Below, in pieces: positions 25,724-41,804 of a stretch of 64,000 nucleotides of DNA. Below the pieces are notes generated by a model. That model did not search any database, was not told the origin of the DNA, and saw only the letters and a list, made by a program, of their open reading frames with translations. The position numbers and the translations under genes are program-made. This stretch comes from Gordonibacter urolithinfaciens (lineage in GTDB: Bacteria > Actinomycetota > Coriobacteriia > Coriobacteriales > Eggerthellaceae), in NCBI RefSeq assembly GCF_900199375.1, contig NZ_LT900217.1:2728001-2792000 (forward strand). Direction: 5' to 3'. Every line of letters starts with the position of its first letter. Within the stretch, counting starts at the first letter, position 1.

Positions 25724-25753
25724 CGATGATCCTTCGTCCATCGCGTCTTATAC

Positions 25754-26324: not shown

Positions 26325-26327
26325 GCC

Positions 26328-26446: not shown

Positions 26447-26484
26447 CCGCGCGGCCGGCGGGGGGGTGTCGGAAAGGACGGGAT

Positions 26485-26886: not shown

Positions 26887-26928
26887 CGGAGCGGGAGGCG
26901 CGTTGGACGCGCGGCCGGCCGGCGCGCT

Positions 26929-28428
26929 TCATGCCGTATCGCCGGCCTCCTGGGCCTCCACGATGTCGATGAGCTCCTGCTGCGAGTGAATGCCCATCTT
27001 CTGGTAGATGTGGTAGGTGTGCGTCTTGACGGTGCGCTCGGCCACGTAGAGCTGGTCGGCGATATGGCGCGCGTTGCGCCCCTTCACCAGGTAGAACAGT
27101 ATCTCTCCCTCGCGTGGGGTAAGGTTGAAGGTGCGGGTCGCCTCGGCGCATTTGTGCTTGTAATGCTGCTCCACCACCGCCTCGGGGTCGGTCTCGGGCT
27201 CGGACATCGGGGCGGGAGGCGCCTCGACGGGCTCGGGCTCCTCGGCCACGATGGCGTACTGGTCGGGCCTGACGGTGGCGACCACGATGTAGGCGCATAC
27301 CAGCATGATGAGGACCATGGCCGCCACGGTGAGCCAGCCCTTGCCGAAGTCCGTGGCCACGAACGCGCCGGCGAACCAGCCGAGTGCCTGGCCGAGGACG
27401 ATGAAGAAGCGTCCTCTCGCGAAGCAGTAGCACGGTGAGATGGACAGCAGCGTGCCGCGCAGCGACAGCACCGAGGCGTTCGTGTAGTCCAGCAGGTACA
27501 GGATGACGAAGAGCGGCGGCGCGGCGACGGTGTTCCAAGGCGCCTGCAGGAACCCGGAGAGGATGAGCCCGCACACGAGGAAGGGCAAGAGCACGAGCTG
27601 CACCCTTCCCATGGCAAGGAGCCGGGGCGCCTTCCGGCTCAGGAGCAGGAAAATAAGCGCGACGCAGACGAACGCCGCGCCCATGGTGATGGGCGGCAGG
27701 ACGCCCTTGCTGATTCGCGCGACGACGAGCCCTGCTATCACGCCGCACATTATGCCGTCGACCAGCATGATGTAGGAGCCGTTCGGGCTGTACCGGCTCG
27801 TCTCCGCCAGCCAGCGCTCGTCGCGCTCGCTCGTGAGCTCGGTCGTGCTCGGCGGTGAGGCTGCGAGAAGCGCGAACGAGCTCGCGCACAGCAGCAGGAA
27901 CGCCGTGATGGCGGCAGGGCCGGGCATGGCCAAGACGCCGGCCACGATGCATCCTGCCAGTCCGAACGACCATAGGTTGGCTGCGCGGATGCGCTCCTCG
28001 CCAAGCGAGCTGCGCACGTCCGCCCAGACGCACGAGAAGTAGGCGCCCGAGGCGCCGAACACGGCCCAGAGCGCGAACTGGAGTACCAGGGGAAGTGCGA
28101 ACGCGAGCACCGTCTCGAGCAGGACGATGCCGGGCAACAGCAGCTGCAGGGCCAGGAAGCCGGTTCGCACCCGGTTGGAGGAGACGAGCTCGTTGCGACC
28201 CTTGCAGCGCGTGATGACGAAGTAGAAGCCTGCCATGGCGGCGAACATCGTGCCGTGGGTGAGGCCGTGCATGACGGGCGTGTTGGTTGCGACCGTGGCC
28301 AGCAGCGGGCTGAAGGCGGCAAGCAGCACGGACGCGGTGAAGAGCGTGAACCCCGCGATCCCCGCCAGCTCCCGCTCGCTGTAGCGGTTCGCCTTTCGAT
28401 TTGCATGCCCCTTGGTGGTTTCGGCCAT
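26929..28428 (-). CDS. Membrane LuxR regulator (12-helix transporter-like domain plus HTH)
   Basis: 499 aa. Residues ~20-400 hold about twelve hydrophobic segments arranged like an MFS transporter. The C-terminal ~65 residues are a LuxR/FixJ helix-turn-helix (LTPREGEILFYLVKGRNARHIADQLYVAERTVKTHTYHIYQKMGIHSQQELID). This architecture is abundant in Eggerthellaceae, where such regulators sit beside inducible molybdoenzyme genes and are thought to sense substrates at the membrane. The ATG at 28428 is preferred because AGGGGGG lies upstream; 28461 is an alternative. Divergent from an MFS gene that leads into the molybdoenzyme locus, so it is a candidate regulator of it. Confidence 0.9.
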   Translation of the reverse strand: MAETTKGHANRKANRYSERELAGIAGFTLFTASVLLAAFSPLLATVATNTPVMHGLTHGTMFAAMAGFYFVITRCKGRNELVSSNRVRTGFLALQLLLPGIVLLETVLAFALPLVLQFALWAVFGASGAYFSCVWADVRSSLGEERIRAANLWSFGLAGCIVAGVLAMPGPAAITAFLLLCASSFALLAASPPSTTELTSERDERWLAETSRYSPNGSYIMLVDGIMCGVIAGLVVARISKGVLPPITMGAAFVCVALIFLLLSRKAPRLLAMGRVQLVLLPFLVCGLILSGFLQAPWNTVAAPPLFVILYLLDYTNASVLSLRGTLLSISPCYCFARGRFFIVLGQALGWFAGAFVATDFGKGWLTVAAMVLIMLVCAYIVVATVRPDQYAIVAEEPEPVEAPPAPMSEPETDPEAVVEQHYKHKCAEATRTFNLTPREGEILFYLVKGRNARHIADQLYVAERTVKTHTYHIYQKMGIHSQQELIDIVEAQEAGDTA

Positions 28429-28784
28429 GGTCGCGTATCCCCCCTGATTCCACGTACCCATGCGAAAGCCGGCGCGCGGCTCGGCTTGGGAGGGCCCGCC
28501 CTCCGATGCGCTGCTCCGCAGGTTTCGGATATATCGTATTCTATCGCGTGCGGTATGCTATCGAGAGTACGTTTTCTCGTTTCGATGCCGCCGGAGCCGA
28601 TTTAATCCTCTGAGTAGCAAGACAAAAACCGTCCCCGTGGCAATCATGGCCAAGCGACGGGCGGATGCCCTGCGGCGCGCGAGGGGCGCGGTCGCAGGCG
28701 CGGCCTCCGTCGGTCCGGCGGCAGGGCCCGTGCCGCGTTGTGCTCGGCGACGCAAGCGGCCCTCGGCGTAAAGGGGAAGGCGCC
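28429..28784. other. Divergent promoter region between LuxR and MFS genes
   Basis: No gene seen. An AT-rich stretch at 28527-28590 contains TAGAAT (minus strand, near 28539) and TATGCT (plus, near 28555) -10 candidates with loosely symmetric CGATA/TATCG motifs. CCGTCCCCGTGG near 28630 resembles fragments of the giant hairpin arms. Confidence 0.5.
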
Positions 28785-30032
28785 ATGAGAGAGACGTTTC
28801 GCAGGTTCTTCGCCTATTTCAGGATCGAGCACGCGCTCGTGCTCGTGCCCGTGTTCGGGCTCGCGGTGTACGACAGCGTGTTCTCGGCGTTCTCGTCGAT
28901 TCTCGGCGTGCTGGGCGACGCGTATCCGGACGTGCCGCGCACGATGGTGCAGATGGTGCTCTCGGTGCCGCCCCTGGTGAGCATCCCCGGAACGCTGTTC
29001 TCGGGGTTCCTGTCCTCGTACGTGCGCAAGAAGCGCATCGCGGAGTTCGCGCTGGCGGTGCTGTTCGTCGGGGGCATGATCCCCGCAGTCTTGCCCGAGC
29101 CCAGCATCTACGCCCTATTCGCGTGCAGCGCCTGCGTGGGTCTCGGGCAGGGGCTCCTGCACCCCATGGCGAACGCTTTCATCTGCCAGACCTGGGACGA
29201 CGACGGCGAGCGCAGTCGCGCTCTCGGGTTCAAGCAGGCGTTCAACTTCATTGGGGAGGCGCTGGTCGCCCTGCTCGTGGGGTTCTTGGCGCTTTCCCAT
29301 TGGGGCAACGCGTTCCTCGTGTACCTGGGTGTGATACCCGTGTTCATCGTAGCCCATATCGCGCTTCCCGAGGGCGGCCTAGACAAGCGGCTTGTCGGCG
29401 GGAAGGGCCGTGCGGCCGGCTTGAAGGAGGTGTTCAAGCCCCGCGCCGTCTACCTGTTCGCCCTGTTCTTCTTCGCCATGATGTTCCTGTTCGGCTTCCA
29501 CACCAATATCGCCATGCTGGTGCAGGAGCGCGGCCTGGGCACGACGGCCGACGTGTCGGTGGTGGCCTCGTCGGTGAGCGTCGTGTCCTTCCTTGTGGGC
29601 ATCGCATATGGGAAGGTGTCGAAGACGTTCGGCCCTTCCACGCTGTGCATCGGGTTCGGGTGCCTCTCCGCGGGAATGCTCGCCGTGGCGGCGTTCGGCT
29701 ACAGCTTTCCGGTGATCATGGCGGGCGGGGTGCTGTTCGGCATCGGATCGGGCATCCAGCAGATCAGCACCATCTACTACATCTCGAAGACGGTGGACAA
29801 GAGCGTGGTGACCATGGCCATCTCGGTGCTGGTCTCGTTCGTCTCGCTCGGCGCCACTTTGTCGCCGCTCGTTATCAACGGCCTGCAGGTGCTCGTGTGG
29901 GGTGCGGAATCGGCAGCGGGCTCGCTCGCCGTGGCCGGATGCGGCTTCGCGGCGCTCGTCGCGGTGGAGGCGATGTCCTCCCGACGCAAGAGAGGGGCGG
30001 GCCGGCAGGGAAAAGGTGCTGGGCGCGGCTAA
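28785..30032 (+). CDS. MFS transporter
   Basis: 415 aa with about twelve hydrophobic segments. An MFS-like loop (FLSSYVRKKRIAEF) follows helix 2 and a second (YGKVSKTFGPSTL) precedes helix 8. There is a GLGQGLLHPMANAF segment in helix 4. It resembles oxalate/formate-type or aromatic-acid MFS carriers, but the substrate cannot be assigned. AAGGGGAAGG precedes the ATG. Divergent from the LuxR regulator and upstream of the first molybdoenzyme, so it may import that enzyme's substrate. Confidence 0.88.
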   Translation: MRETFRRFFAYFRIEHALVLVPVFGLAVYDSVFSAFSSILGVLGDAYPDVPRTMVQMVLSVPPLVSIPGTLFSGFLSSYVRKKRIAEFALAVLFVGGMIPAVLPEPSIYALFACSACVGLGQGLLHPMANAFICQTWDDDGERSRALGFKQAFNFIGEALVALLVGFLALSHWGNAFLVYLGVIPVFIVAHIALPEGGLDKRLVGGKGRAAGLKEVFKPRAVYLFALFFFAMMFLFGFHTNIAMLVQERGLGTTADVSVVASSVSVVSFLVGIAYGKVSKTFGPSTLCIGFGCLSAGMLAVAAFGYSFPVIMAGGVLFGIGSGIQQISTIYYISKTVDKSVVTMAISVLVSFVSLGATLSPLVINGLQVLVWGAESAAGSLAVAGCGFAALVAVEAMSSRRKRGAGRQGKGAGRG

Positions 30033-30107
30033 TACCCAGAGTATCGCACCCCGTTGGAACAGTTTCAAACCGCCAGTTCAGAGCATGGTTTCCAGGTTAA
30101 TACCCAG
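30030..30107. promoter_or_regulatory. Direct repeats TAATACCCAG upstream of the molybdoenzyme operon
   Basis: TAATACCCAG occurs at 30030-30039 and 30098-30107, 68 bp apart. The first overlaps the MFS stop codon, and it continues as a small dyad (ATACCCAGAGTAT). Candidate activator sites for the nearby LuxR regulator. No clear -10/-35 was found. Confidence 0.4.
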
Positions 30108-30258
30108 CAGCAGATGCGTCGGCGCCGCCAACCGGGGAAACTCGTCGGCATCGAAGCCGCCGTGGGCCAAATGAGCCGAGACACGGTGGGGTCGAAGGAT
30201 GAAGGAGGGCCTCGGGGAAGTTGGCGGCCCGAGGGAGTTGCGAGGAAGGAAGGTTCAT

Positions 30259-30495
30259 ATGGCAGATCAGGAGTTGCTCGCCCGGTATGCGCCGACGATC
30301 GATTCGCCGGAAACGAAGGAGGCTTACCTGCTCGACGGCGAGCTCTACATTCGCCACGAGTTCCGCGACCCGGCCGAGCTCCAAACGCGCATGACCTACC
30401 ACCGGGTGGGGGAGGACAACGTCGTGTCGAACGACAACCTTGTCCTGCTGGGCGTATGGGCGCGCGCCCAGAAGCAGGGCGAGCAGGTGAAGTGA
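30259..30495 (+). CDS. Small acidic protein at head of molybdoenzyme operon
   Basis: 78 aa, unrecognised. MADQELLARYAPTIDSPETKEAY is followed by LLDGELYIRHEFRDPAELQTRM. No cysteine, signal peptide or membrane segment. GAAGGAAGG precedes the ATG, and 30 bases separate its stop from the molybdoenzyme ATG. The position suggests an accessory or maturation role for that enzyme; this is inference only. Confidence 0.65.
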   Translation: MADQELLARYAPTIDSPETKEAYLLDGELYIRHEFRDPAELQTRMTYHRVGEDNVVSNDNLVLLGVWARAQKQGEQVK

Positions 30496-30525
30496 TACGA
30501 GAGCGAACGCTGGAAGGAGAATTGC

Positions 30526-32838
30526 ATGAGAGAGTGCTTCGATCCTCAAATCTACAAGAAGGATTGGCAGTACCAGGAAGGGGACCTCACCGTCACGCGC
30601 ACGTGCCAATGGTCGGCTCCCGGCTGCCACCAGGGGTGCAGCATCCTGTTCTACACCGACAAGGACGGCAAGCTGGTGAAGGTCGAAGGCGACCCCAACT
30701 CGCCGGTGACGGACGGCCGTTTGTGCATGCGCTGCCTGGCCATGGTGGAGGCCGTGTACCACCCCGACCGCATAATCTATCCCATGAAGCGCGCCCGCGA
30801 AGATCGCGGCAAGGACAAGTGGGAGCGCATCACCATGGACGAGGCGTACGAGCTGTGCGTCGAGATGGTGAAGGACATCACCGAGAAGTACGGCGCGAAG
30901 TCCATCTGCACCGGCGCGGGCACGGGCCGCAACGCCACCTGGCAGTCCAACGTGCTGGGGCAGGGCGCCTTCGGCACGCCGAACGACAACTGCGGCCTGC
31001 TCGCGGGCAACTGCTGTTACACGCCGCGCATGCAGGGCATGAACGCGGTCTTGGGCGACACGTTCATCGCCGACTGTGGACAGCTCAACGAGGCGCGCTT
31101 CGACCACCCCGACTACCGGCGCCCCGACCTGTTCATCATCTGGGGCAACAACCCGCTTCGGGCCAACGCCGACGGCTTCTACGGGCACTGGATCATCGAC
31201 TGCATGCGCCGCGGCTCGGAGCTGTTCGTGGTCGACCCGCAGGTGACGTGGCTCTCGGCGCATGCCAAGCTCTACGTGCAGGTGCGTCCCGGCACCGATG
31301 CGGCACTCGCTCTGGCCATCGGGCACGTGATGGTGGAGGAGGAGCTCTACGACAAGGAGTTCGTGGAGTGCTGGTGCTACGGTTTCGACGAGTACAAGGA
31401 GCGCGTGAGCGATTGGACGCCCGAACGCGCCGCGGAGATCTGCTGGTGCGAGCCTGAGAAGATCTACGAGGCAGCGCGCCTCATCGGCACCGCCGGCGTG
31501 ACCACGCTGCAGTGGGGCGTGGCCTTCGACCAGACGAAGTGGGCGAACGGCACGGCGCATGCGGCCGTGGCCGTGCAGGCGCTTACCGGCAACATCGACA
31601 ACCCCGGCGGCTTCGTGGGCATCAACTTCGGCTACGTGCAGTCCGACATCCGCGAGAACATTGCCAAGAGCCTGCCGAACGTCCGCGAGGGCCGCTTGGG
31701 CGACGACGGCAACTGGGGCCTCATGAACGCCGTGGGCAAGGGCGGCCACGCCATTCCCGAGGCCATCCTCGACGCGGCCGAGACGGGGGTGCCGTATCCG
31801 GTGAAGATGCTGTTCATGTGCTCCACGACGGCGTTCACCAACATGGCCGGCCAGGCACGGCGCGTGTACGACGTGTACAAGGACATGGACCACGTGGTGG
31901 TGTGCGACCTGTTCATGACGCCCACCGCCATGGCCATCGGCGACCTGTTCATCCCCATGGCCATGGGCTGCGAGCGCAACGGCGTGCGCGGCTGGTACAC
32001 GCCCCTGCGCTCCATCGTGAAGGTCACGCAGACCGGCGACGCCGTGGGCGACGAGCAGATGATGCTCGAGCTCGGCAAGAAGATGAACCCCGACCTGTTC
32101 TATTGGGACGACGTGCCCGAGATGCTGGAGTTCTGCACGAACAACATGGCCACGGTTCCCATCCATATCACGTTCAGCGAGCTGCGCGAGAAGGTGATCG
32201 TGTACCCCGAGTTCGAGTACTACAAGTACAAGACGGGTAAGCTCCGCTTCGACGGCAACCCCGGGTTCAACACGCTGTCCGGGCGCGTGGAGCTGTTCTG
32301 CAACATGTACAACAACGTGGGCATGGACCCGCTGCCCTACTTCAAGGAGCCGCCCGAGAGCCCCGAGAGCACGCCCGAACTGTTCGCCGAGTACCCGCTC
32401 GTGCTCACGACCGGGCGCCGCTGCTGGGAGTACTTCCATTCCGAGCATCGCCAGCTGCGCTCCATGCGCGAGTTCCACAAGTGGCCGATGTTCGCCATCA
32501 ACCCGGCCGACGCCGAGGCGGCGGGCATCAAGGAGGGCGACTGGGCCGTCATCGAGAACGCGCACGGCAAGGCCATCGAGGTGGCCCATGTCACCGGCAC
32601 CATCATGAAGGGCGTGGTGAGCGCCGAGCACGGCTGGTGGTTCCCCGAGCGCGACAAGGAGGAGCCGTCGCTTTACGGGGTGTGGGAGTCCAACATCAAC
32701 TGCCTCACCGTGCAGGGGGACTTCGGCCCGAGCGGTTACGGCTCGTCGTACAAGACCCAGCTCTGCCGCGTCTACCCGGCGCCGGAGGGATACGGGGCCG
32801 AGTTCGAGAGGATGTACGCGGAGCACCACAACCTGTAG
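30526..32838 (+). CDS. Molybdopterin-dependent oxidoreductase, catechol-dehydroxylase-like (module 1)
   Basis: 770-aa DMSO-reductase-superfamily catalytic subunit. It binds a [4Fe-4S] cluster through an N-terminal Cys group (Cys34, Cys38, Cys67, Cys70; Cys27 nearby) and bis-MGD through the remaining domains (WERITMDEAYEL, NPLRANADGF, VDPQVTWLSAHA, TALTGNIDNPGG, final GDWAVIENAHG domain). No Tat or Sec signal, so it is cytoplasmic. Cys163-Cys164 (NCCYTPR) fall where the Mo ligand is expected. Related families are acetylene hydratase, pyrogallol transhydroxylase and gut catechol dehydroxylases. It is followed by its ferredoxin (33-base gap) and an MFS carrier. Substrate unknown. Confidence 0.88.
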   Translation: MRECFDPQIYKKDWQYQEGDLTVTRTCQWSAPGCHQGCSILFYTDKDGKLVKVEGDPNSPVTDGRLCMRCLAMVEAVYHPDRIIYPMKRAREDRGKDKWERITMDEAYELCVEMVKDITEKYGAKSICTGAGTGRNATWQSNVLGQGAFGTPNDNCGLLAGNCCYTPRMQGMNAVLGDTFIADCGQLNEARFDHPDYRRPDLFIIWGNNPLRANADGFYGHWIIDCMRRGSELFVVDPQVTWLSAHAKLYVQVRPGTDAALALAIGHVMVEEELYDKEFVECWCYGFDEYKERVSDWTPERAAEICWCEPEKIYEAARLIGTAGVTTLQWGVAFDQTKWANGTAHAAVAVQALTGNIDNPGGFVGINFGYVQSDIRENIAKSLPNVREGRLGDDGNWGLMNAVGKGGHAIPEAILDAAETGVPYPVKMLFMCSTTAFTNMAGQARRVYDVYKDMDHVVVCDLFMTPTAMAIGDLFIPMAMGCERNGVRGWYTPLRSIVKVTQTGDAVGDEQMMLELGKKMNPDLFYWDDVPEMLEFCTNNMATVPIHITFSELREKVIVYPEFEYYKYKTGKLRFDGNPGFNTLSGRVELFCNMYNNVGMDPLPYFKEPPESPESTPELFAEYPLVLTTGRRCWEYFHSEHRQLRSMREFHKWPMFAINPADAEAAGIKEGDWAVIENAHGKAIEVAHVTGTIMKGVVSAEHGWWFPERDKEEPSLYGVWESNINCLTVQGDFGPSGYGSSYKTQLCRVYPAPEGYGAEFERMYAEHHNL

Positions 32839-32871
32839 GCGCCGCCATACTAAGGAAAGGAGATGGGACGC

Positions 32872-33204
32872 ATGGCACAACATGGTCTTTTGATCGATTA
32901 CGAGTTCTGCACGGGCTGCCACGCCTGCGAGATGGCGTGCAAAGTGGAGAAGGGCCTGGGCGAGGGCGAGTGGGGTATCAAGCTCGCCCAGATAGGGCCT
33001 TGGAAGCTGGACGGCGACGCGTGGGAATGGGACTACGTCCCGATGCCCACCCAGCGCTGCGACCTGTGCGCGGAGCGCGTGGCGGCGGGCAAGGTCCCGG
33101 CGTGCGTGCACCACTGCCAGTCGCTGGCGATGGAGTTCGGCCCGGTGGACGAGCTTGCCAAGAAAGCGGTCAAGCCGCGCATGGCGCTGTTCACGGTTCG
33201 GTAG
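32872..33204 (+). CDS. 4Fe-4S ferredoxin subunit (module 1)
   Basis: 110 aa. Cys groups CTGCHACEMAC (residues ~13-23), CDLC and CVHHC bind probably two or three [4Fe-4S] clusters, in the arrangement of small DMSO-reductase beta-like subunits. It would pass electrons to the adjacent molybdoenzyme in the cytoplasm. The ATG at 32872 is preferred over 32863 because AAAGGAG is then correctly spaced and the start aligns with the sister ferredoxin (MATYGLMIDNEYC). High similarity to the module-2 protein shows a duplication. Confidence 0.88.
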   Translation: MAQHGLLIDYEFCTGCHACEMACKVEKGLGEGEWGIKLAQIGPWKLDGDAWEWDYVPMPTQRCDLCAERVAAGKVPACVHHCQSLAMEFGPVDELAKKAVKPRMALFTVR

Positions 33205-33274
33205 GGGATTATGCCCCCGCAGTGCACCGGGAGGGCGCGCCGCGGGGGCCGGCATACGGCAAAGGGGGTTTCGC

Positions 33275-34780
33275 ATGAGCGAGAAGGTTTCACAGCTAGG
33301 GGACCGGGCGGTTTCGGCCATCCAGAACAACGTTGGGCAGGCGCTCGGCCTGATATACGGCCTCGGCATGCTCACCTGGACGGCGTTCAACCAGATGAAC
33401 AGCAACTACTGGTCGTACTTCCTCACCGAGATCTGCGGTTTGGAGCCCACCGTCATGGGCACCGTGAAGGCGGTCACGGGCGTGGGCGAGTGGTTCTTCG
33501 TCATCATAGCCGCCATCATCATCGAGCGCGTGTGGCTCAAGCACGGCCAGTACCGTAGCTGGCTTCTGGTGGCGCCGCCGGCGACGTTCGTCTGCCTGCT
33601 CATGACGTTCGTCGATCCCGTGTTCCTGGACATGGGTGCCAAGACGGCTTGGATGATCTTCTTCCAGATCGTGGGCGGGTTCTTCTCCAGCTTCTTCATG
33701 ATAGCCGCCACGTCCATCGTACCGGTTATCAGCCGGACCGAGGCCGACCGCACGCTGCTCTCGCAGCGCAAGGCGCAGGGCAACATGCTGGTGAAGGTGC
33801 TGTTCGCCGCCATATCGCTGCCGGCTATCCTGGCCATCAACGGCCTCGTGTACCGCGTGCCCGCCGGCGAGAACGCCCAGAACGCAGGACCGGCCGGATT
33901 CACGGTGCTGGCGCTGGTGTTCGGCATCATCATGATCGTCATGTTCGTGGTCATGTACAAGCGTATCGACGGCATGGACCCCACGCAGAAGATATGCGAG
34001 GAGCGCGCTGCGGCCAAGAAGCGCGGCGAGAAGGTGCCGCCCCTCGCCGCCGGCGAGAAGGTGGGCCTGGGCGAGATGCTCAAGTACTGGCTCACGAACC
34101 TTCCGGCCGTCATCGGCCTGTTCGCCGAGATCATCCGCTTCGTGGCGCAGATGACCATCCAGAGCATGGCCATGTACGTGTTCACCTACGCGTTCGGCGA
34201 CGTGGCCATGGCGGCCGTCATGCTCACGGCGTGCAACGTCACGGGCCTCGTGGCCACGTTCGTGTCCGAGCCCGTCGCCCGCAAGGTGGGCATCCGTGCC
34301 ACGTACCTGGTGGGCATCGGGGTGTCGTTCGCGTTCTCCGTCGTGTGCCTCTTCGTGGGCGCGTCGAGCATGATGGCCTTCATCGTGTGCATTTGCGGCA
34401 TCTACTTCGGCATGAACTTCATGAACGGCACCATGATGGGCATGCAGTCCAACGCCATCGCCTACGGCGAGTGGCGCGACGGCAAGACCGCCAAGGCGTT
34501 CATCATGTCCACGTTCCAGTGGTGTCCGAAGATCGCCAACGCGGTGGCCGGCCTGCTCACAGGCTTCGGCTTGGCCGCCATCGGATTCGTGTCGGGCATG
34601 GAGGCGTCGCCCGAGCTCGCACAGGGCATGGTGAACATCATCTGCCTCATTCCCGCCGTGTGCTTCGGCGTGGCGTTCGCGGCCTTCTTCTTCGGCTACC
34701 GTCTGACACCGAAGAAGATGGAGCAGATCGCCGTCGACCTCGCTGCCCGCGAGGCTGAAAAGGGCGCGGACGGCAAGTAG
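33275..34780 (+). CDS. MFS transporter, GPH-like (module 1)
   Basis: 501 aa with about twelve hydrophobic segments. A long central hydrophilic loop (GMDPTQKICEERAAAKKRGEK) and an IAYGEWRDGKTAKAFIMS segment near residue 400 are typical of the glycoside-pentoside-hexuronide:cation symporter group. In Eggerthellaceae, such carriers accompany molybdoenzymes acting on plant phenols or glycosides. Located 70 bases after the ferredoxin, with AAAGGGGG before the ATG. It probably imports the substrate of module 1; this is inferred from position. Confidence 0.86.
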   Translation: MSEKVSQLGDRAVSAIQNNVGQALGLIYGLGMLTWTAFNQMNSNYWSYFLTEICGLEPTVMGTVKAVTGVGEWFFVIIAAIIIERVWLKHGQYRSWLLVAPPATFVCLLMTFVDPVFLDMGAKTAWMIFFQIVGGFFSSFFMIAATSIVPVISRTEADRTLLSQRKAQGNMLVKVLFAAISLPAILAINGLVYRVPAGENAQNAGPAGFTVLALVFGIIMIVMFVVMYKRIDGMDPTQKICEERAAAKKRGEKVPPLAAGEKVGLGEMLKYWLTNLPAVIGLFAEIIRFVAQMTIQSMAMYVFTYAFGDVAMAAVMLTACNVTGLVATFVSEPVARKVGIRATYLVGIGVSFAFSVVCLFVGASSMMAFIVCICGIYFGMNFMNGTMMGMQSNAIAYGEWRDGKTAKAFIMSTFQWCPKIANAVAGLLTGFGLAAIGFVSGMEASPELAQGMVNIICLIPAVCFGVAFAAFFFGYRLTPKKMEQIAVDLAAREAEKGADGK

Positions 34781-34914
34781 CCGTCCGCCGATTGACTACA
34801 ACCGGGCGGGCCGCAAACAGCGCGCTTGCGGCGGGGACCGAGCGTCCCAGCCGCTGGCCTGCGCCGTGGCGAGTGGCTGCGGACGGCCCGTCCCTAACGG
34901 AAAAGAGGACTCAC

Positions 34915-35151
34915 ATGTGCTTCAGACCGGCTGCCATCAGCATGGACAAGACGTGTCCCGCCTGCGGCGCGACCAACGACTTCAATAACGAGAACTGCGA
35001 CCAGTGCGGCGCGACGCTGCCGAGCGCCCCGCCCATCGCGGGCATGCCGGGGGCGCCCGGGGCGCCAGGTGCCCCCGGAGCGCCAGCTGCCCCGAAAGCC
35101 CCGGCGGCGCCGGGAGCCCCTGCGGCCCCGAAGGCCCCTGCGGCCGAGTAG
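34915..35151 (+). CDS. Small zinc-ribbon protein with collagen-like Gly-Ala-Pro tail
   Basis: 78 aa. Residues ~11-36 form a rubredoxin-like zinc ribbon (CPACGATN...CDQCGA). From residue 44 the chain is almost only Gly, Ala, Pro and Lys in triplets (GAPGAPGAPGAP, AAPKAPAAPGAP). AAAGAGGA precedes the ATG. It lies between the module-1 transporter and the trigger-factor-like gene. I do not recognise a function. A metal-bearing adaptor for the nearby enzymes or chaperone is possible. Confidence 0.7.
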   Translation: MCFRPAAISMDKTCPACGATNDFNNENCDQCGATLPSAPPIAGMPGAPGAPGAPGAPAAPKAPAAPGAPAAPKAPAAE

Positions 35152-35184
35152 CGCCGAAGACGCAGCCAAGGACGGGAGCGAGCC

Positions 35185-36483
35185 ATGGACTTCAAGAAAC
35201 TCGAGAGGGCGGACGATGAGGCGACCGGCGCGGTAGAGGTTGCCGTCGTGCTGGACGCCGCCGAGGTGCACCGACAGCTGGCGGAATTCTACGGCGCGGT
35301 GGGCGCGGCGTGCAAGCTGCCGTCCGATGCGCAGTGGGATGACGTGGACGCCGCCGGCGCGCGCACGATGCCGCCGGAGGACTACCGCGAGGTGCGGCGC
35401 GACTTCGTGGTCAACCGAGCGGCGGGCGAGGCGCTCGCGGCGCTCGGCATCGAGCCGGCGCTCACGCCGCGCGTCCGCGCCACGGCGTACCCGGACGCGG
35501 GCGAGGACTTCGCCTTCGAGCTGTCCGCAGTGGAGAGGCCGGCGCTTTCGCTGTCGTCGGCGGACCCCGTGGAGATCGAGGCGGAGGATGTCCGGGTGAC
35601 CGGCGAGCTGGTCGATGCCCGCATCGCGGAGCTCATGGAGGCGCGCGCGGAGTTCCTGCCGGCCGACCCGCACCCGGTTGTGCTCGGCGACGTCGTGAGC
35701 GTCGACGTGGCCACGTTCTTGGAAGGGCGGCCGGTGCCGCGCCTCACGGGCAAGAGCATGGTGCTCGAGCTGGCGGACGGCTCCATGCCCGAATCCTTCG
35801 TCGAGCGGCTCGTGGGCATGGACGTGGGCCAGACGCGCACCTTCGACTACGAGGTGCCGCGGCCGCGAGCCCTCGGCGACGGCGACGTGGAGTGCTATAC
35901 GGCCACGGTCACGGTTCTCGGCCAGCTGCACAAGGAAGTGCCGGCCCTCACCGACGCGTGGGTCGCCGAAAGCATAGAGGGCGCCTCCACGGCGGCGGAG
36001 TTTCGGGCTGCGGTGGCCCGCGGCCTCGAGGCCGAGGCAACGCTGCTCAACCGCGACGCGCATGCCCGCCTGGCGAACATCGAGCTGGAGAAGCGCCTGC
36101 AAGGGGTTATTCCCGACGCGTTCTACCAAGCCTCGCGGGACGGCCTGCGCCGCTCGCTCGAACGCGAGCTGGCCGGCAAGGGCCAGACGATCGACGACTA
36201 CTACGAGCAGGAGCGCATGAACGAGGAGGAGCTCTCCGTGCAGCTGCTCATCAAGTCGGGCGAGAACCTGCGCCAGGGCTTCGCGCTGGAGGCCCTGTTC
36301 GACGCACGCGGCATGGAGCTTGCCGAGGATGACCTTCGGCTTGCGTGCGAGGAGGCGTTCGGCGCCGGGTCGTACGACCCGGAAACGCTCGAGCGCACGG
36401 GGAGGCGCCGTGTGGTGGAGGATGCCGCGAAGCGCATCGCCGCCCTCAACTGGCTCGCCGACACGGCGGTCGTGAAGGGCTGA
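35185..36483 (+). CDS. Trigger-factor-like chaperone/peptidyl-prolyl isomerase paralogue
   Basis: 432 aa with the three-domain order of trigger factor. The N-terminal ribosome-binding-like domain (residues ~1-120) keeps the fold pattern but lacks an obvious GFRxGKxP signature loop. An FKBP-like PPIase domain lies at ~150-250 (HPVVLGDVVSVDVATFLEGRPV, LVGMDVGQTRTFDYEVP). A long helical C-terminal chaperone domain contains FRAAVARGLEAEA and GKGQTIDDYYEQERMNEEELSVQ. It is flanked by molybdoenzyme modules, so it is probably not the housekeeping tig. It may be a dedicated chaperone for cofactor-free apoenzyme or ferredoxin, which is inference. Confidence 0.8.
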   Translation: MDFKKLERADDEATGAVEVAVVLDAAEVHRQLAEFYGAVGAACKLPSDAQWDDVDAAGARTMPPEDYREVRRDFVVNRAAGEALAALGIEPALTPRVRATAYPDAGEDFAFELSAVERPALSLSSADPVEIEAEDVRVTGELVDARIAELMEARAEFLPADPHPVVLGDVVSVDVATFLEGRPVPRLTGKSMVLELADGSMPESFVERLVGMDVGQTRTFDYEVPRPRALGDGDVECYTATVTVLGQLHKEVPALTDAWVAESIEGASTAAEFRAAVARGLEAEATLLNRDAHARLANIELEKRLQGVIPDAFYQASRDGLRRSLERELAGKGQTIDDYYEQERMNEEELSVQLLIKSGENLRQGFALEALFDARGMELAEDDLRLACEEAFGAGSYDPETLERTGRRRVVEDAAKRIAALNWLADTAVVKG

Positions 36484-36489
36484 CCGGTC

Positions 36490-36765
36490 ATGGAGCGCTG
36501 CTACGTGTGCAACCACTGCGGGAAATGCGACGAGATGGAATGGGGTATCGCCCCACCGCCGCCCGTCTGCCTCGACTGCGGGCATGCCGTGGAGCCGGGC
36601 GAGAGCCCCGTCCGCTGCGCCGTGTGCGGCAGCGGGCTCATCGAGGCGGCCGACCGGGCCGCATCGCCCGGGCCCGGCGGCGCGCAGCCCTCCGTCGGCC
36701 CGCGCAACCAGGGAAACCGCTTCGCCAACGGGCGGAGCGCAACAGAGAGGAGAGAGCATGAGTGA
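36490..36765 (+). CDS. Small zinc-ribbon protein upstream of second molybdoenzyme
   Basis: 91 aa. Cysteine pairs CYVCNHCGKC, CLDCGHA and CAVCGSG suggest two treble-clef or rubredoxin-like metal sites in the first 55 residues. The C terminus is polar and disordered. It starts 6 bases after the chaperone stop and overlaps the next molybdoenzyme by 8 bases, so the three are surely co-transcribed. Family not recognised. A maturation or metal-handling role for the enzyme is inferred. Confidence 0.7.
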   Translation: MERCYVCNHCGKCDEMEWGIAPPPPVCLDCGHAVEPGESPVRCAVCGSGLIEAADRAASPGPGGAQPSVGPRNQGNRFANGRSATERREHE

Positions 36766-39064
36766 GTTGACCCGCGTGTCCGAGACGCCTCGCGTCACGG
36801 AGCTCGAGGACGGGACGAAGGTGTACCGCACGGCCCAGTGGTCGCCCCCGGGCTGTCACGGCGTCGGCTGCGGCCTGAGGGCGTTCGTCAAGGACGGCAA
36901 GCTGGTGAAGGTGGAGGGAGACCCCGACCAGCCCATCACGAACGGGCGCCTCTGCGTGCGTTGCCTGACGCTGCCCGAGTACCTCTACCACGAGGACCGT
37001 CTCCTGCATCCCATGAAGCGCGACCGCGCGAACCGCGGCCAGCCCGACAAGTGGGAGCGCATCTCGTGGGACGAGGCGTACGATATCATCGTGGAGAAGT
37101 ACCGCGAGCTTACCGAGAAATACGGCCCCGACACGGTGTCGGTTTGGACGGGCACCGGCCGCGAGGCCAGCGCGTACCAGTTCCAAACGTGCAACCAGGT
37201 GTTCCACAGCCGGACGGCCATCCACGCCAACGGCGGCTGGTCGTGCGTCATCCCACGCCAGACCGCCATGGACTGGCTTCTGGGCTGCGCCTACGTGGAG
37301 TACGACGGCGCCTTCGGCTTCAAGGACCGCTACGACGACCCGCGCTACGAGCTGCCCCGCTACATGCTCGTGTGGGGCCGCGACACGCTGTGGTCGAACC
37401 CGGACGGCCTGTTCGGGCACAGCACGGTTGACATGATGAAGCGCGGCATGAAGGTCATCGTGGTCGACCCCCGCGCCAACTGGCTCGCCCGCCACGCCGC
37501 CTACCATTTCCAGATCCGGCCCGGCACCGACGCGGCGCTCGCCATGGCATTCAACGCGGTCATCATCAAAGAGGACCTCTACGACCACGACTTCGTGGAG
37601 AAATGGACGTACGGCTTCGACGAGTACGCGGAACGCTGCTGCACCATGACGCCCGAGAGGGCCGCCGAGATCTGCGAGGTGCCGGTCGAGGACATCTACG
37701 CCGCCGCCCGCTGCCTTGCGCAGAAGCCATGCACGGCGTCGGTGGGCCTCAAGACCGACCAGAACCCCAACACGCTCCAGATTTGCCATGCCATCTGGGG
37801 TATTTTCGCCATCTGCGGCAACCTGGACAACCCGGGCGGCATCAAGCTGGGACAGACCATGCTCAACGGCGGCTCCACGGGCCGCAAGGGCGTGGGCATG
37901 CTGGTGGAGGAAGAGGACTCGAACCCTATCCCCATCGCCGGCCACGACCAGTATCCGGCCATGGACTTCATCATCAACACCACGCAGCCCGACTGCACGT
38001 TGGACACGCTGCGCACGAACATCCCGTACCCGATAGAGTTCCTGTTCATCCAGAGCTCGAACTTCATCTCGTCGTGCATCACCCAGCAGCCCATGCAGTG
38101 GATGGAGGCATGCCGCCACAAGGAGTTCGTGGTGGCCACCGACATCTTCATGAACCCCACTATCCAGGCGCTCGCCGACGTGGTGCTTCCGGTGTCCACC
38201 TCGCTCGAGCACGAGGGCATCGTCACGTTCCACGGCTGCAACCAGCCCGGCCAGTTCCATGCGCTCACGAAGGTGCTCGAGCCGCTCGGCGAGTGCAAGT
38301 CCGACCTGGAGATCATGCTCGACCTCGACCACCGCATCAATCCCGACCGCACCGAGGACGCCGAGAAGTGGTCGAGCCCGCACGCGTACCTGGACAACAA
38401 GATCCAGAACATACCCTACACGGCCGACCCCGACACGGGCGAGGACATGACCTACGAAACGCTGCGCGAATGGGTGTACGGCCGCTACGAGATTCCCTAC
38501 TACCAGTACGAACTGGGGTTGCTGCGCGCCGACGGCAAGCCGGGCTTCAAATCGCCCACCGGGCGCGTGGAGCTGTGGAGCACGGTGAAGCAGCACCTAG
38601 GCGAGGATCCGCTGCCCTACTACGAGGAGCCGCGCTTCTCCAAGCGCTCGCGCCCCGAATGGATCGACGAGTACCCGCTCGACTTCGTCACGGGCGCCCG
38701 CCGTCCCACGTCGTTCCACACCGAGCACCGCATGATCGATTCGCTGCGCGAGATACGCACCGCAGCCACGGTGGAGATCCACCCCGCCACCGCCGAGAAG
38801 CACGGCATCGGCCAGGGCGACTGGGTGACCATCGAGAACCCCTGGGGGAAGTGCCAGATGGTTGCCGATATCACGCCCATCGTGAAGGAGGGCGTCATCG
38901 GGTGCGACCACGGATGGTGGTACCCGGAGGACAAGGACGCCGAGCTGTTCAGCGTGCGCAAGTCGTCCATCAACTCGCTCATGCCGTGGAAGGAGATCGG
39001 GAAGCTGGGCCTGGGCTCCCACTACGGAGCGCTGCCCTGCAAGATCTGCCGGACCGAAAACTAG
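36758..39064 (+). CDS. Molybdopterin-dependent oxidoreductase, catechol-dehydroxylase-like (module 2)
   Basis: 768 aa, same architecture as the module-1 enzyme. The [4Fe-4S] Cys group is Cys33, Cys38, Cys66, Cys69. Then come WERISWDEAYDI, RDTLWSNPDGLFGHS, VDPRANWLARHAAYHFQIRPG and ICGNLDNPGGIK, with a C-terminal GDWVTIENPWG domain. Cys163 (WSCVIPR) aligns with the CysCys of module 1 as candidate Mo ligand. No signal peptide. The ATG at 36758 follows GAGAGGAGAGAG. Its ferredoxin follows after 20 bases. The two enzymes are clearly diverged, so different substrates are likely. Confidence 0.88.
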   Translation: MSELTRVSETPRVTELEDGTKVYRTAQWSPPGCHGVGCGLRAFVKDGKLVKVEGDPDQPITNGRLCVRCLTLPEYLYHEDRLLHPMKRDRANRGQPDKWERISWDEAYDIIVEKYRELTEKYGPDTVSVWTGTGREASAYQFQTCNQVFHSRTAIHANGGWSCVIPRQTAMDWLLGCAYVEYDGAFGFKDRYDDPRYELPRYMLVWGRDTLWSNPDGLFGHSTVDMMKRGMKVIVVDPRANWLARHAAYHFQIRPGTDAALAMAFNAVIIKEDLYDHDFVEKWTYGFDEYAERCCTMTPERAAEICEVPVEDIYAAARCLAQKPCTASVGLKTDQNPNTLQICHAIWGIFAICGNLDNPGGIKLGQTMLNGGSTGRKGVGMLVEEEDSNPIPIAGHDQYPAMDFIINTTQPDCTLDTLRTNIPYPIEFLFIQSSNFISSCITQQPMQWMEACRHKEFVVATDIFMNPTIQALADVVLPVSTSLEHEGIVTFHGCNQPGQFHALTKVLEPLGECKSDLEIMLDLDHRINPDRTEDAEKWSSPHAYLDNKIQNIPYTADPDTGEDMTYETLREWVYGRYEIPYYQYELGLLRADGKPGFKSPTGRVELWSTVKQHLGEDPLPYYEEPRFSKRSRPEWIDEYPLDFVTGARRPTSFHTEHRMIDSLREIRTAATVEIHPATAEKHGIGQGDWVTIENPWGKCQMVADITPIVKEGVIGCDHGWWYPEDKDAELFSVRKSSINSLMPWKEIGKLGLGSHYGALPCKICRTEN

Positions 39065-39084
39065 CCTGGAAGGGAGGTATTGAT

Positions 39085-39420
39085 ATGGCCACCTATGGAC
39101 TGATGATAGACAACGAGTACTGCACCGGCTGCCACACCTGCGAGATCGCCTGCCGCAACGAGCTGGGCCTGCCCTTGGGGCAATGGGGCATCAAGCTTTT
39201 GGAGATGGGGCCGTGGCGCAAGACCGACGGCACCTGGGAGGGTAAGTACGTCCCCGTGCCCACCACCTCGTGCAACCTGTGCGAGGGCCGCGTTGCCGCG
39301 GGCGGGGAGCCCTCGTGCGCGCTGCACTGTCTAGCTAACGCCATCGAGTACGGCACGCTCGAGGAGCTGGCCGTGAAGATGGCCGAACGCGGGGCGCAGT
39401 GCTCGGTGTTCCTGCCGTAA
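39085..39420 (+). CDS. 4Fe-4S ferredoxin subunit (module 2)
   Basis: 111 aa. Cys groups CTGCHTCEIAC, CNLC and CALHC match the module-1 ferredoxin position by position (also WGIKLLEMGPW/WGIKLAQIGPW). It is the electron donor or acceptor for the preceding molybdoenzyme. AAGGGAGG precedes the ATG. A GC-rich hairpin terminator follows 8 bases after the stop, so the second operon probably ends here and the MFS gene downstream has its own promoter or depends on read-through. Confidence 0.88.
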   Translation: MATYGLMIDNEYCTGCHTCEIACRNELGLPLGQWGIKLLEMGPWRKTDGTWEGKYVPVPTTSCNLCEGRVAAGGEPSCALHCLANAIEYGTLEELAVKMAERGAQCSVFLP

Positions 39421-39427
39421 GCACTTG

Positions 39428-39472
39428 GAGCCGGGCGCGAGGCACTCGGCCGGAAACAGCTGCGCCCGGCTC
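39428..39472 (+). terminator. Hairpin after module-2 ferredoxin
   Basis: GAGCCGGGCGC (39428-39438) pairs with GCGCCCGGCTC (39462-39472), followed by a pyrimidine-rich TTCTCCTGCTT. Confidence 0.6.
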
Positions 39473-39580
39473 TTCTCCTGCTTGATCGGCGCCGGTGCCT
39501 GGTGCGCACGTTTTGAACTTGGCTCGGCACCGGTTTCCGGCTTTGGAAGCCAGGGGTTGCTGCAAGAGGAGGGGGAGGGC

Positions 39581-40753
39581 ATGGGGAGCGCGAAGCTGTG
39601 GAACACGAGGTTCGCGCAGCTGTTCTGCATCGAGGCAACGCTGCAGTTCGGGCTGTACCTTACGCGACCCCTCATCGCGGGTTATGCGGTTTCGTTGGGA
39701 GCGTCCCTGACTTTGGCGGGTTTCCTCGCGGGGCTTCTCGCCGCAGCGGCTCTCGCTGCAAGGCCGGCGAGCGGCATCGTTGCTGACAGGCTGGGGAAAA
39801 AGGACCTGCTCTCGGTATCCTGCGGGCTCTTCGCGGTCTCGGCTTTGGGGTGCGCCCTGTTCCGGTCGATCCCGCTCATGGCGCTCTTCCTGACCCTGCA
39901 GGGGTTCGCCTTCGCCTTCAAATCGACCGTCGTCGTCTCGCTCGCATCGCTTGTGGTTCCCGAGGAGAGGGTGGGAAGCGGAGTGGGGTGGCTGGGGGTA
40001 GCCTACACGATAGCCTGCGCCCTGGGTCCTGCGTTCGGCTCGCTCGTCGGCGACATGGCAGGCTATGCGGGCGCCTTCGCCACCTCGGGGGCTCTGCTTT
40101 CAGCGGGGTTCGTCATGGCGGTACTGTTCAAGACGCCTCCCGCTGCAGAGGTTCGCGCATCGTCGGGCGGGCGGCTTCGCGGAAAGCCCTCCGATTGGCT
40201 CTACGGCCCCGCGCTGCCGCTTTCCGCGGTAGCCGGCCTGCTGATGGTGGCGCAGGGCGTGACGTCGTCGTTTGTGCTCGTAGTGGGCGAAATGCGCGGC
40301 ATCGAGGGTGCGCCCCTGTATTTTCTGCTTTACTCCTTGGCAACGGCGACGGCGCGACCTTTGGCAGGGCGCATCAGCGATGCGCGCGGCGTCCATGCGG
40401 TGGCGGTTCCCATGATGATGCTCGCCGCATTCGGGATGCTGGCGGCGGCGTTCGTGGATTCGTTCGCGGGCATCGCCGCGGCGGGAGTGTGCATGGGGGC
40501 GGGGCAGGGATCCGCGTACTGCGCCCTGCAGGCCGAGTCGGTGCGCGGGGTTTCTAAGGATCGAGTTGGGCGCGCTGCGAACACGTTCTATCTCGGACCG
40601 GATCTCTGCATGGGCTTGGGCCCCGTTCTGGGAGGTTTCGTACTGCAGGCGGCGGGGGCGGCGGCCCTGTTCCTGTTCAACGCGACGGCCGTCCTGACAG
40701 GCTTGGGGCTGCTCGTCGTTTGCGGAAGGCGGCGTGCCGACAGCGCCTCTTGA
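39581..40753 (+). CDS. MFS transporter (module 2)
   Basis: 390 aa, about twelve hydrophobic segments. An MFS motif-A-like loop (PASGIVADRLGKKDL) lies between helices 2 and 3 and a second (ARPLAGRISDARGVH) between helices 8 and 9. GSGVGWLGVAYTIACALGP is in helix 5. It is a general drug/metabolite H+ antiporter or uptake type, unlike the GPH carrier of module 1. A strong purine-rich ribosome site precedes the ATG. Position after the second molybdoenzyme suggests it moves that enzyme's substrate or product. Confidence 0.85.
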   Translation: MGSAKLWNTRFAQLFCIEATLQFGLYLTRPLIAGYAVSLGASLTLAGFLAGLLAAAALAARPASGIVADRLGKKDLLSVSCGLFAVSALGCALFRSIPLMALFLTLQGFAFAFKSTVVVSLASLVVPEERVGSGVGWLGVAYTIACALGPAFGSLVGDMAGYAGAFATSGALLSAGFVMAVLFKTPPAAEVRASSGGRLRGKPSDWLYGPALPLSAVAGLLMVAQGVTSSFVLVVGEMRGIEGAPLYFLLYSLATATARPLAGRISDARGVHAVAVPMMMLAAFGMLAAAFVDSFAGIAAAGVCMGAGQGSAYCALQAESVRGVSKDRVGRAANTFYLGPDLCMGLGPVLGGFVLQAAGAAALFLFNATAVLTGLGLLVVCGRRRADSAS

Positions 40754-40816
40754 CGGCAGCCGTGCAGCCACGCTCCGTCGGCTGCGAAGGCTGCCGCGCC
40801 CCCTCATGCTCCCGTC

Positions 40817-40838
40817 CCTTAAGCGTTCCTTAACCGGC
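40817..40838 (+). promoter_or_regulatory. 11-bp direct repeats upstream of the VanZ-like gene
   Basis: CCTTAAGCGTT and CCTTAACCGGC are consecutive 11-bp repeats, the spacing of OmpR-family response-regulator sites. A similar CTTTAA pair lies upstream of the ABC genes at 44824. A -10-like TACGGT follows at 40853-40858. Confidence 0.45.
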
Positions 40839-40963
40839 GCTGAAGTTGCGGCTACGGTTGGCGCGCGCGGGGTGGGGCGGGGGCCGCAGGGCGGTACGCT
40901 TCTTCCTGCCCCGGTTGCGCGCACCGGGGCGCAACCGGGCGGAAGCGGAGAAGGAGCGGCCTT

Positions 40964-41677
40964 ATGGAGCAGTCAAAGGCTTGCGGGTGTGCAGGCAAGG
41001 CGGCGGGCAGGGCGGACGGCCCTGCGAGGGACGGCGAACGCGACGGCGGGCGCCGCGGCGCGGTCGAACACGGGCTGGGACGCGGCGCCGGGCACGGGGC
41101 AGGTGGCGTGGCGGACGGCCTTCCGGGTATCGCCGCACCGGCGGCGTTCCAGATGGAACGGCCGGCGGGGTTCTTGGGAAGCCGGGCGCTCACCGGGTGC
41201 CTCTTCGCGGTCTATCTGGCGTTCTTGGCATGGATCGTGCTGCTTAAAGGGCAGTTCTCGCTTGACGTGGCAGGCACGATGCGCAGCGTGAACCTGGTGC
41301 CGTTGGCGGGCGCGACGGTCATCAACGGCGCGGCCGACTACCGCGAGGCCGTGGAGAACCTGGTGGCGTTCGTGCCGTTCGGGCTGTACCTGGGCATGCT
41401 CGCAGGGCGCCAGCCGCTTTGGCGGGGCATCGCGGCCGTGGCGGCCGTGAGCCTGGGCTTCGAGGTATTGCAGTTCGCGTTCGCCATGGGGGCGTCGGAC
41501 GTCACCGACCTGATCGCGAACACGGCGGGCGGCGCGCTGGGGCTGGGCCTCTACGCGCTCGCGCGCCGCGCCTTCCGCTCGGACGGGCGCGCGCTGCGCT
41601 GGTGCAACGCCGCGGGGCTTGCCTGCACGCTGCTCGTCCTGGCGCTGACGGCCCTGCTCGTGGCGGCGAACGGATAG
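40964..41677 (+). CDS. VanZ-like membrane protein
   Basis: 237 aa. The first ~70 residues are polar and Gly/Ala-rich. Then come about four hydrophobic segments with the VanZ order: LFAVYLAFLAWIVLLKG, RSVNLVPLAGA, ENLVAFVPFGLYLGML, AAVAAVSLGFEVLQFAF, DVTDLIANTAGGALGLGLY. VanZ proteins give low-level teicoplanin resistance in some operons, but most members have unknown roles. GAGAAGGAG precedes the ATG. The gene is monocistronic, with a 25-bp hairpin shared with convergent pyrE. Confidence 0.82.
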   Translation: MEQSKACGCAGKAAGRADGPARDGERDGGRRGAVEHGLGRGAGHGAGGVADGLPGIAAPAAFQMERPAGFLGSRALTGCLFAVYLAFLAWIVLLKGQFSLDVAGTMRSVNLVPLAGATVINGAADYREAVENLVAFVPFGLYLGMLAGRQPLWRGIAAVAAVSLGFEVLQFAFAMGASDVTDLIANTAGGALGLGLYALARRAFRSDGRALRWCNAAGLACTLLVLALTALLVAANG

Positions 41678-41697
41678 TGAGGCGACCTGGGTCTGCC

Positions 41698-41750
41698 CGG
41701 GATGAACGACAGGGGGAGCGCACCATGCGCTCCCCCTGTCGTTCATCCCG
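41698..41750. terminator. Perfect 25-bp hairpin between convergent VanZ-like and pyrE genes
   Basis: Arms 41698-41722 and 41726-41750 pair over 25 bp with a 3-nt loop. They contain GACAGGGGGAGCG, similar to the GACAGGGGGACG of the giant hairpin at 24383. Bidirectional terminator. Confidence 0.75.
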
Positions 41751-41804
41751 ATGGCCGTCTTTCGCTTCGTTCGGCCTGACGGCCGCACCTGCGGGAGGGC
41801 GGGG

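Follow-up and report, generated by a model that had tools for sequence, protein, structure and literature searches.

The range of polyphenol and catecholamine products to which the host is exposed is set by catechol dehydroxylases, most of which have no assigned substrate, as is the case for 121 of the 126 clusters of the family (PMC11585353). The closest described systems to the locus treated here are pairs of Gordonibacter-type enzymes. Eadh1 and Eadh2 of the ellagic-acid (eam) cluster carry out two sequential dehydroxylations, and these two, like (+)-Eldh1 and (+)-Eldh2 of Gordonibacter pamelaeae, act on the same molecule or on successive intermediates (PMC12771579, PMC11887054). The locus lies in a 64,000-nucleotide stretch of Gordonibacter urolithinfaciens, hereafter the window (G000:C1:2728001-2792000, on a single contig of 3,294,868 bases), and is a block of 12 genes, in the order membrane LuxR-type regulator (minus strand), major facilitator superfamily (MFS) carrier, 78-aa protein, molybdoenzyme ENZ1, ferredoxin Fd1, GPH carrier, MCFRP peptide, trigger-factor-like protein, second zinc-ribbon protein, ENZ2, Fd2 and a further MFS carrier (Table 1). 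The block is genuine and conserved and, as a two-enzyme dehydroxylase locus, of a known kind; we found no assigned substrate for it and no description of its accessory parts. It probably codes for a single inducible pathway of Gordonibacter-type catechol dehydroxylation, with two reductive steps, in which the two enzymes most likely strip hydroxyls in succession from a plant- or host-derived phenolic. New here are the shared inheritance of the enzymes and their sister block, an empty site in G. pamelaeae, and three accessory parts, the trigger-factor-like protein, the 78-aa protein and the MCFRP peptide.

Both enzymes have the Molybdop_Fe4S4, Molybdopterin and Molydop_binding domains above the Pfam cut-offs, and a simple scan finds in neither a hydrophobic segment nor, in the first 40 residues, an RR of the twin-arginine translocation (Tat) type, as expected of cytoplasmic catalytic subunits with a bis(molybdopterin guanine dinucleotide) (bis-MGD) cofactor. 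The genes of the small 4Fe-4S partners, Fd1 and Fd2, lie directly downstream of ENZ1 and ENZ2. An earlier note on this DNA, made from the letters alone, had described two cytoplasmic molybdoenzymes of about 770 aa, each followed by a ferredoxin of about 110 aa and an MFS-superfamily carrier, and the domains, the coordinates and the lack of an RR bear this out. The likeness of the two modules that it had seen extends to the order of enzyme, ferredoxin and carrier but not to the kind of carrier, which is a GPH/MelB-type symporter (MFS_2) after ENZ1 and an ordinary MFS_1 protein after ENZ2.

In a tree of 70 rows, built by a quick method with the SH-like approximate likelihood ratio test (SH-aLRT) as its sole support value, ENZ1 and ENZ2 fall within a 44-row clade of Gordonibacter-type catechol dehydroxylases (SH-aLRT 91, below the 95 mark), which together with three Chloroflexota rows forms a 47-row clade at 99. 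The 44-row clade contains 28 enzymes of this genome, namely ENZ1, ENZ2 and 26 others, as well as the enzymes assigned as (+)-Eldh1/2 and those of the eam locus; Dodh itself was not identified among the rows. Two E. lenta open reading frames (ORFs), taken as Eggerthella-type by their position in the contig, lie outside it, and E. coli DmsA and NapA fall away from it. Several deep branches are weak or long, so we make no claim about the branching outside the 47-row clade. Three molybdoenzyme fragments with fewer than 560 aligned residues, E. coli FdhF included, were left out, as were the truncated ENZ2 orthologues L101_20209 and L102_20566, and ENZ2 orthologues are represented in the tree by those of L099 and L134. 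The earlier note had likened the locus to catechol dehydroxylases and had proposed a phylogeny as the check; neither enzyme is placed in an unrelated clade, and the likeness stands. These comparisons support the membership of ENZ1 and ENZ2 in the Gordonibacter-type catechol dehydroxylases, nearer to Eldh and Eadh than to the Tat-exported E. lenta type, and dehydroxylation by both is likely. Matches on plasmids are all below 60% identity, and viral contigs gave no match with ENZ2 as the query.

The active site is conserved across the clade. The predicted molybdenum (Mo)-ligand cysteine, residue 164 in ENZ1 and 163 in ENZ2, is followed by x-x-Pro-Arg in all 44 clade rows of the alignment, and the same C-x-x-P-R occurs in both E. 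lenta-type rows and in all three Chloroflexota rows, with no counterpart in acetylene hydratase, DmsA or NapA. Cluster cysteines at ENZ1 positions 34, 38, 67 and 70 are present in 42, 43, 43 and 43 of the 44 rows, respectively. Members of the clade have A, P or G at the classical first cysteine position, and none of the ten rows compared from outside it has Cys70; this pattern suggests an FS0 cluster with a shifted set of ligands. One paralogue (G000:C1:755612-757942) has none of the four predicted FS0 cysteines but retains the C-x-x-P-R Mo-ligand motif.

Among the matches listed in a search of 138 Eggerthellaceae genomes, orthologues of at least 80% identity to ENZ1 and to ENZ2 occur in the same nine (G000, G066, G029, G058, G061, G086, G039, G040 and G060), the ENZ1 orthologue of G060 being taken from the comparison of loci; those in G039, G040 and G060 are contig-end fragments, and weaker fragments may be hidden elsewhere. 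The block stands on one contig in five of the nine (G000, G066, G029, G058 and G086) and is split by contig ends in the other four. Named carriers are Gordonibacter sp. Marseille-P2775 (G066, LT827128.1, of the same genus as this genome), Adlercreutzia sp. ZJ473, A. faecimuris and Raoultibacter timonensis. G066 and ZJ473 keep the same gene order, whereas the first MFS gene of A. faecimuris lies beyond the LuxR gene and R. timonensis has both MFS genes between the trigger-factor-like gene and ENZ2. This recurrence in Adlercreutzia and Raoultibacter, with local rearrangements, indicates that the layout is not due to chance. Across the block loci, aligned pieces are 81-98% identical for ENZ1 and ENZ2, 47-73% for the trigger-factor-like protein and 33-81% for the LuxR protein. 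Furthermore, a diverged sister block is present in G085 and G058, with an ENZ1-like enzyme (58-60%), a ferredoxin, one or two 78-aa-like proteins, an MCFRP peptide, a trigger factor, a GPH carrier and an ENZ2-like enzyme, which has 46-48% identity in G085 and is cut short in G058. Because their orthologues occur in the same genomes and the block is duplicated, ENZ1 and ENZ2 look like parts of one two-step pathway.

Several observations weigh against a single pathway. ENZ1 and ENZ2 are 38.6% identical and belong to different sub-clades. In G039, a different cluster (L134) contains a further ENZ2 orthologue (81-82%), beside an ENZ1-like enzyme of 50%, and L116 pairs an ENZ1 relative of 75% (a fragment) with an ENZ2-like enzyme of 47%. 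In both L131 (A. faecimuris) and L125 (G060), a LuxR-type helix-turn-helix (HTH) gene separates the trigger-factor-like gene from ENZ2, as would suit an ENZ2 that is induced on its own, and no hydrolase, demethylase or decarboxylase that would hint at a substrate was recognised in the block. The HTH genes and the extra orthologue of G039, together with the ferredoxin and carrier that each enzyme has of its own, favour an alternative in which the two dehydroxylases act independently on unrelated substrates and are clustered for the sake of common accessory genes and regulation. The E. lenta Cadh cluster is of this sort, its five enzymes having distinct substrates but accessory genes in common (PMC11887054). 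We regard such independence of ENZ1 and ENZ2 as rather unlikely, as no genome has an orthologue of at least 80% to only one of the two enzymes among the matches listed and the pair was duplicated jointly in the sister block. The two substrate-specific, possibly linked pathways of the earlier note are, for the same reasons, better read as one two-enzyme pathway, with the second ENZ2 orthologue of G039 as a qualification.

A non-catechol substrate, on which ENZ1 and ENZ2 would act as molybdenum reductases or without redox chemistry (acetylene-hydratase-like, transhydroxylase-like or using another respiratory acceptor), is more improbable still. Acetylene hydratase (2E7Z) is the best sequence match in the PDB for both ENZ1 (1.6e-72) and ENZ2 (1.5e-63), which speaks for such an activity, as does the large share of family clusters that lack a known substrate. 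Catechol dehydroxylases have themselves been described as closest to acetylene hydratase (PMC7028382), and the same is seen here. Transhydroxylase is a weak match to ENZ2 (1.3e-12) and is not listed for ENZ1 at a cut of 1e-10, and the clade members to which a published activity can be assigned are catechol dehydroxylases. Moreover, the essential Asp of acetylene hydratase, which we take to be Asp13, after the second cluster cysteine, is replaced by His in ENZ1, ENZ2 and all 44 clade rows, and its C-I-G-N-T stretch by C-x-x-P-R.

The site of the block differs between close relatives. In G067, which is closely related to this genome and which we take to be G. pamelaeae 7-10-1, the region G067:C1:1857000-1876900 (L215) is collinear with positions 24494-26885 and 41808-42703 of the window, and about 850 bases stand where the window has 14.9 kb (26886-41807) containing the whole block. 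The block was also not found at the corresponding site in G065 and G068. Together with the empty site, this points to gain or loss of the block as a unit. G068 (L216) has a different dehydroxylase-ferredoxin-MCFRP insertion close by, and, as read from these alignments, the block site is a variable site for dehydroxylase cargo. Pfam scans recognised no mobility gene in the block. Nitroreductase-family genes flank it a few genes off (24492-25709 and 42890-43405, both on the minus strand), and the former is also present in G. pamelaeae, near the empty site. The cluster L134 of G039 (G039:C111:10000-29900) brings together an ENZ2-like enzyme of 81%, an ENZ1-like enzyme of 50%, another ENZ2-like enzyme of 51% and ferredoxins.

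In the proposed single pathway, the membrane LuxR protein would sense the phenolic substrate and turn the operon on, perhaps through the conserved intergenic element, and the GPH and MFS carriers would carry substrate and product across the membrane. Each of ENZ1 and ENZ2 would receive electrons from its own 2x[4Fe-4S] partner and take one hydroxyl, from the same compound or from successive intermediates, in the manner of Eadh1/2 and (+)-Eldh1/2. Fd1 and Fd2 each have two CxxC-type sets made up of eight cysteines. Given that the two enzymes share their inheritance and have a sensor of their own and a duplicated sister block, candidate substrates can be narrowed to compounds that lose two hydroxyls, and G. 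urolithinfaciens is already genetically tractable as a host.

A regulator of the membrane LuxR type, a family described in PMC9734109, and MFS carriers are both found at the block. A hydropathy scan of the LuxR protein gives 14 overlapping hydrophobic segments before the HTH, compatible with about 12 helices without being a helix count. The earlier note had placed a 12-helix LuxR regulator next to the first enzyme; the protein is there and its segments fit, but it lies outside the interval which that note had marked, and an MFS gene and a small ORF intervene. The LuxR gene adjoins the block in the relatives whose contig covers that side (L099/L129, L123, L126, L130, L133, L135, L137 and L139). 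The likely true start of the first MFS_1 carrier is 28785, judging from where relatives align. The intergenic element, upstream of the 78-aa gene, is kept with few substitutions in all nine aligned upstream regions, across genera. A pattern fitted to it matches once in the window, against 0.03 expected. It also matches in 22 of 229 loci; there is overlap among these loci, and all of them are copies of this upstream region. The element is a candidate LuxR operator or promoter site.

Table 1 Features of the two-enzyme block and its upstream region, with positions in the window.
Feature	Position	Strand	Basis
Membrane LuxR-type regulator, 510 aa, GerE HTH at 446-500	26929..28461	-	Pfam GerE 60.8 bits; hydrophobic N-terminal part
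MFS_1 carrier	28665..30032	+	Pfam MFS_1 123 bits; 52-78% in relatives
Conserved intergenic element TTAATACCCAGCAGCAGATG, candidate regulator-binding or promoter site	30097..30116	+	Kept in upstream alignment of relatives
Small conserved protein, 78 aa, predicted alpha-beta-beta-beta-alpha	30259..30495	+	Conservation, codon comparisons, AlphaFold
ENZ1, cytoplasmic bis-MGD catechol-dehydroxylase-family enzyme, 770 aa, predicted Mo ligand Cys164	30526..32838	+	Pfam, tree, alignment
Fd1, electron-transfer subunit, two predicted 4Fe-4S sites, 113 aa, 8 Cys	32863..33204	+	Sequence, Pfam, models
GPH (MelB-type, MFS_2) carrier	33275..34780	+	Pfam MFS_2 199 bits; 86-96% identical in relatives
MCFRP-family zinc-ribbon peptide, Pro/Gly/Ala-rich tail, 78 aa	34915..35151	+	MCFRP pattern match, ribbon
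Trigger-factor-like protein without GFRxGxxP ribosome-docking motif, 432 aa	35185..36483	+	Pfam Trigger_N and Trigger_C
Second small zinc-ribbon-like protein, 91 aa, overlaps ENZ2 start	36490..36765	+	No Pfam match
ENZ2, cytoplasmic bis-MGD catechol-dehydroxylase-family enzyme, 768 aa, predicted Mo ligand Cys163	36758..39064	+	Pfam, tree, alignment
Fd2, electron-transfer subunit, 111 aa, 9 Cys	39085..39420	+	Sequence, models, relatives
MFS_1 carrier	39581..40753	+	Pfam MFS_1 121 bits

Between the two modules, the 'chaperone block' of the earlier note consists of a trigger-factor homologue with a small zinc-ribbon gene on either side, and the first of these two genes encodes the MCFRP peptide. 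The pattern ATGTGYTTYMGNCC finds 18 such sites in this genome and none with a reversed control; the site at 27298, in two overlapping stretches, is counted once, and a CxxC...CxxC ribbon is present in 17 of the 18 peptides. Each of the 18 sites has a molybdopterin-oxidoreductase domain match no more than 6.6 kb away, at a median of 1.6 kb, compared with 22.7 kb for random placements. A single random position has a 22% chance of falling that near, and none of 2,000 random sets was as close as the MCFRP set. A survey of 137 Eggerthellaceae genomes, which does not include G117, gives at least 441 matches versus 35 for the reversed control (hand count). The 56 genomes with an ENZ1-type enzyme (E<=1e-150) average at least 7.2 matches, with at least one in 55 of them, and the 81 without a listed ENZ1-type enzyme average at least 0.5, with matches in at least 26, kinship being uncorrected in both. 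Among the matches listed, some genomes from other families of the order have several as well. The Arg4 codon of 52 distinct ribbon-bearing peptides of the loci compared is AGA in 47, AGG in 5 and CGN in none, and AGA is rare in eight window genes (4 of 214 Arg codons). No Pfam model scores over the cut-off for the MCFRP peptide of the block, and a longer version of its ORF drew no NCBIfam model. A literature search on the string 'MCFRP' returned nothing on this subject by title, and none of the matches listed combined Gordonibacter with zinc ribbon. The pattern has no match, among those listed, in G053, which we take to be E. lenta DSM 2243. Active (+)-Eldh1/2 have been expressed in E. lenta (PMC11887054), and it is therefore doubtful that all Gordonibacter-type enzymes need an MCFRP peptide.

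The trigger-factor-like protein scores 127.8 bits with TIGR00115, under the cut-off of 180.2. The ribosome-docking signature of trigger factor, GFRxGxxP, is absent from it and present in one of 47 trigger-factor-like ORFs, a set with two short members (283 aa) and no housekeeping gene of another genome. The sole bearer lies at 331 kb in this genome, beside an ORF that we take for clpX. Five of the six trigger-factor-like genes of this genome are 1.7-6.2 kb from a molybdopterin-domain match and the sixth is 28 kb away. Trigger factors as a general marker of molybdoenzyme loci are unsupported, as nine of 35 regions outside the block (L175-L209, by E-value) hold a molybdoenzyme ORF and 26 do not; an MCFRP peptide is encoded in eight of those nine and in none of the 26. 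A literature search combining trigger factor with catechol dehydroxylase found nothing.

The interval marked in the earlier note began at 30259, the start of the 78-aa gene, and this gene is real: the protein is conserved in nine other loci at 58-95% identity, and synonymous changes exceed nonsynonymous ones in all four codon comparisons. It occurs once in this genome and, among the loci compared, only with the ENZ1 lineage. None of the ten members of the family has a Pfam match. AlphaFold gives a pLDDT of 81 (the other four models, 55-71), and the predicted fold has no Foldseek match in the PDB at E<=0.001 and none above Z 3.7 with VIA-align.

All three accessory parts, the trigger-factor-like protein, the 78-aa protein and the MCFRP peptide, probably assist folding or maturation of the cytoplasmic molybdoenzymes. 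We tentatively raise the possibility that the cytoplasmic molybdenum dehydroxylases of Eggerthellaceae have an undescribed maturation system of their own, made up of MCFRP peptides, motif-less trigger-factor homologues and the 78-aa protein, instead of the TorD-type chaperones that serve exported enzymes. MCFRP would then be the common component and the 78-aa protein an ENZ1-lineage-specific part, and the rare AGA codon, near-fixed at MCFRP position 4, would hint at further control at the level of translation or RNA. The MCFRP family is a simple marker of molybdoenzyme loci and a candidate for the missing maturation factors of their cytoplasmic members.

Identity to characterised enzymes was measured for those that could be assigned; Dodh, Gp Hcdh, Gs Vadh, (-)-Eddh and Eadh3 were not picked out by name. 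The best values are 47.9% for ENZ1 and 40.1% for ENZ2, so neither enzyme is close enough to share the substrate of an assigned one; an identity of 72% separated five characterised enzymes in a network (PMC11585353), and neither reaches it with any assignable reference. The best matches in G067 (82% complete), among those listed, are 49% for ENZ1 and 54% for ENZ2, so no unrecognised close orthologue is evident there.

As opposed to acetylene hydratase, with which they share the cysteine at the Mo-ligand position, ENZ1 and ENZ2 have His for the catalytic Asp, the extra cysteine at ENZ1 position 70 and C-x-x-P-R. The Eggerthella-type enzymes Dadh, Cadh and Hcdh also have LuxR-type regulators, and C-x-x-P-R is present in the two E. 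lenta rows examined, to which ENZ1 and ENZ2 are about 30% identical; those enzymes differ in being three-subunit, membrane-anchored and larger, with TorD-like chaperones (PMC11887054). Similar to the block, the eam cluster combines two Gordonibacter-type dehydroxylases, 4Fe-4S partners, MFS carriers and a LuxR regulator (PMC12771579). Its enzymes were assigned here, after the same paper, as the two clade members flanking the amidohydrolase at 3013838-3014572 (3.01 Mb). They are 38.7-42.5% identical to ENZ1 and ENZ2, and the block has no amidohydrolase: PF04909, the family of the eam amidohydrolase Eah, matches at 1.81, 2.96 (below cut-off) and 3.01 Mb, with none in the window (2.728-2.792 Mb). 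We therefore reject the block as the ellagic-acid locus, an eam-like locus being present elsewhere at about 3.005-3.018 Mb.

The block is likewise not the (+)-Eldh1/2 locus, whose orthologues lie at 1.918-1.924 Mb and are at most 48% identical. (+)-Eldh1/2 were assigned through the adjacency and the 73.5% mutual identity of the G067 pair, and the agreement with the published 74% supports the assignment (PMC11887054). Eldh1 and Eldh2 are 47.9% and 46.8% identical to ENZ1 and 39.3% and 38.2% to ENZ2. Unlike ENZ1 and ENZ2, the two Eldh enzymes are close sisters, encoded by adjacent genes. Both systems consist of cytoplasmic two-subunit Gordonibacter-type enzymes (GPA_25810/GPA_25800 in G. pamelaeae; PMC11887054), Eldh1/2 and ENZ1 belong to the same 19-row sub-clade, and in this genome an MCFRP gene follows the orthologous Eldh pair.

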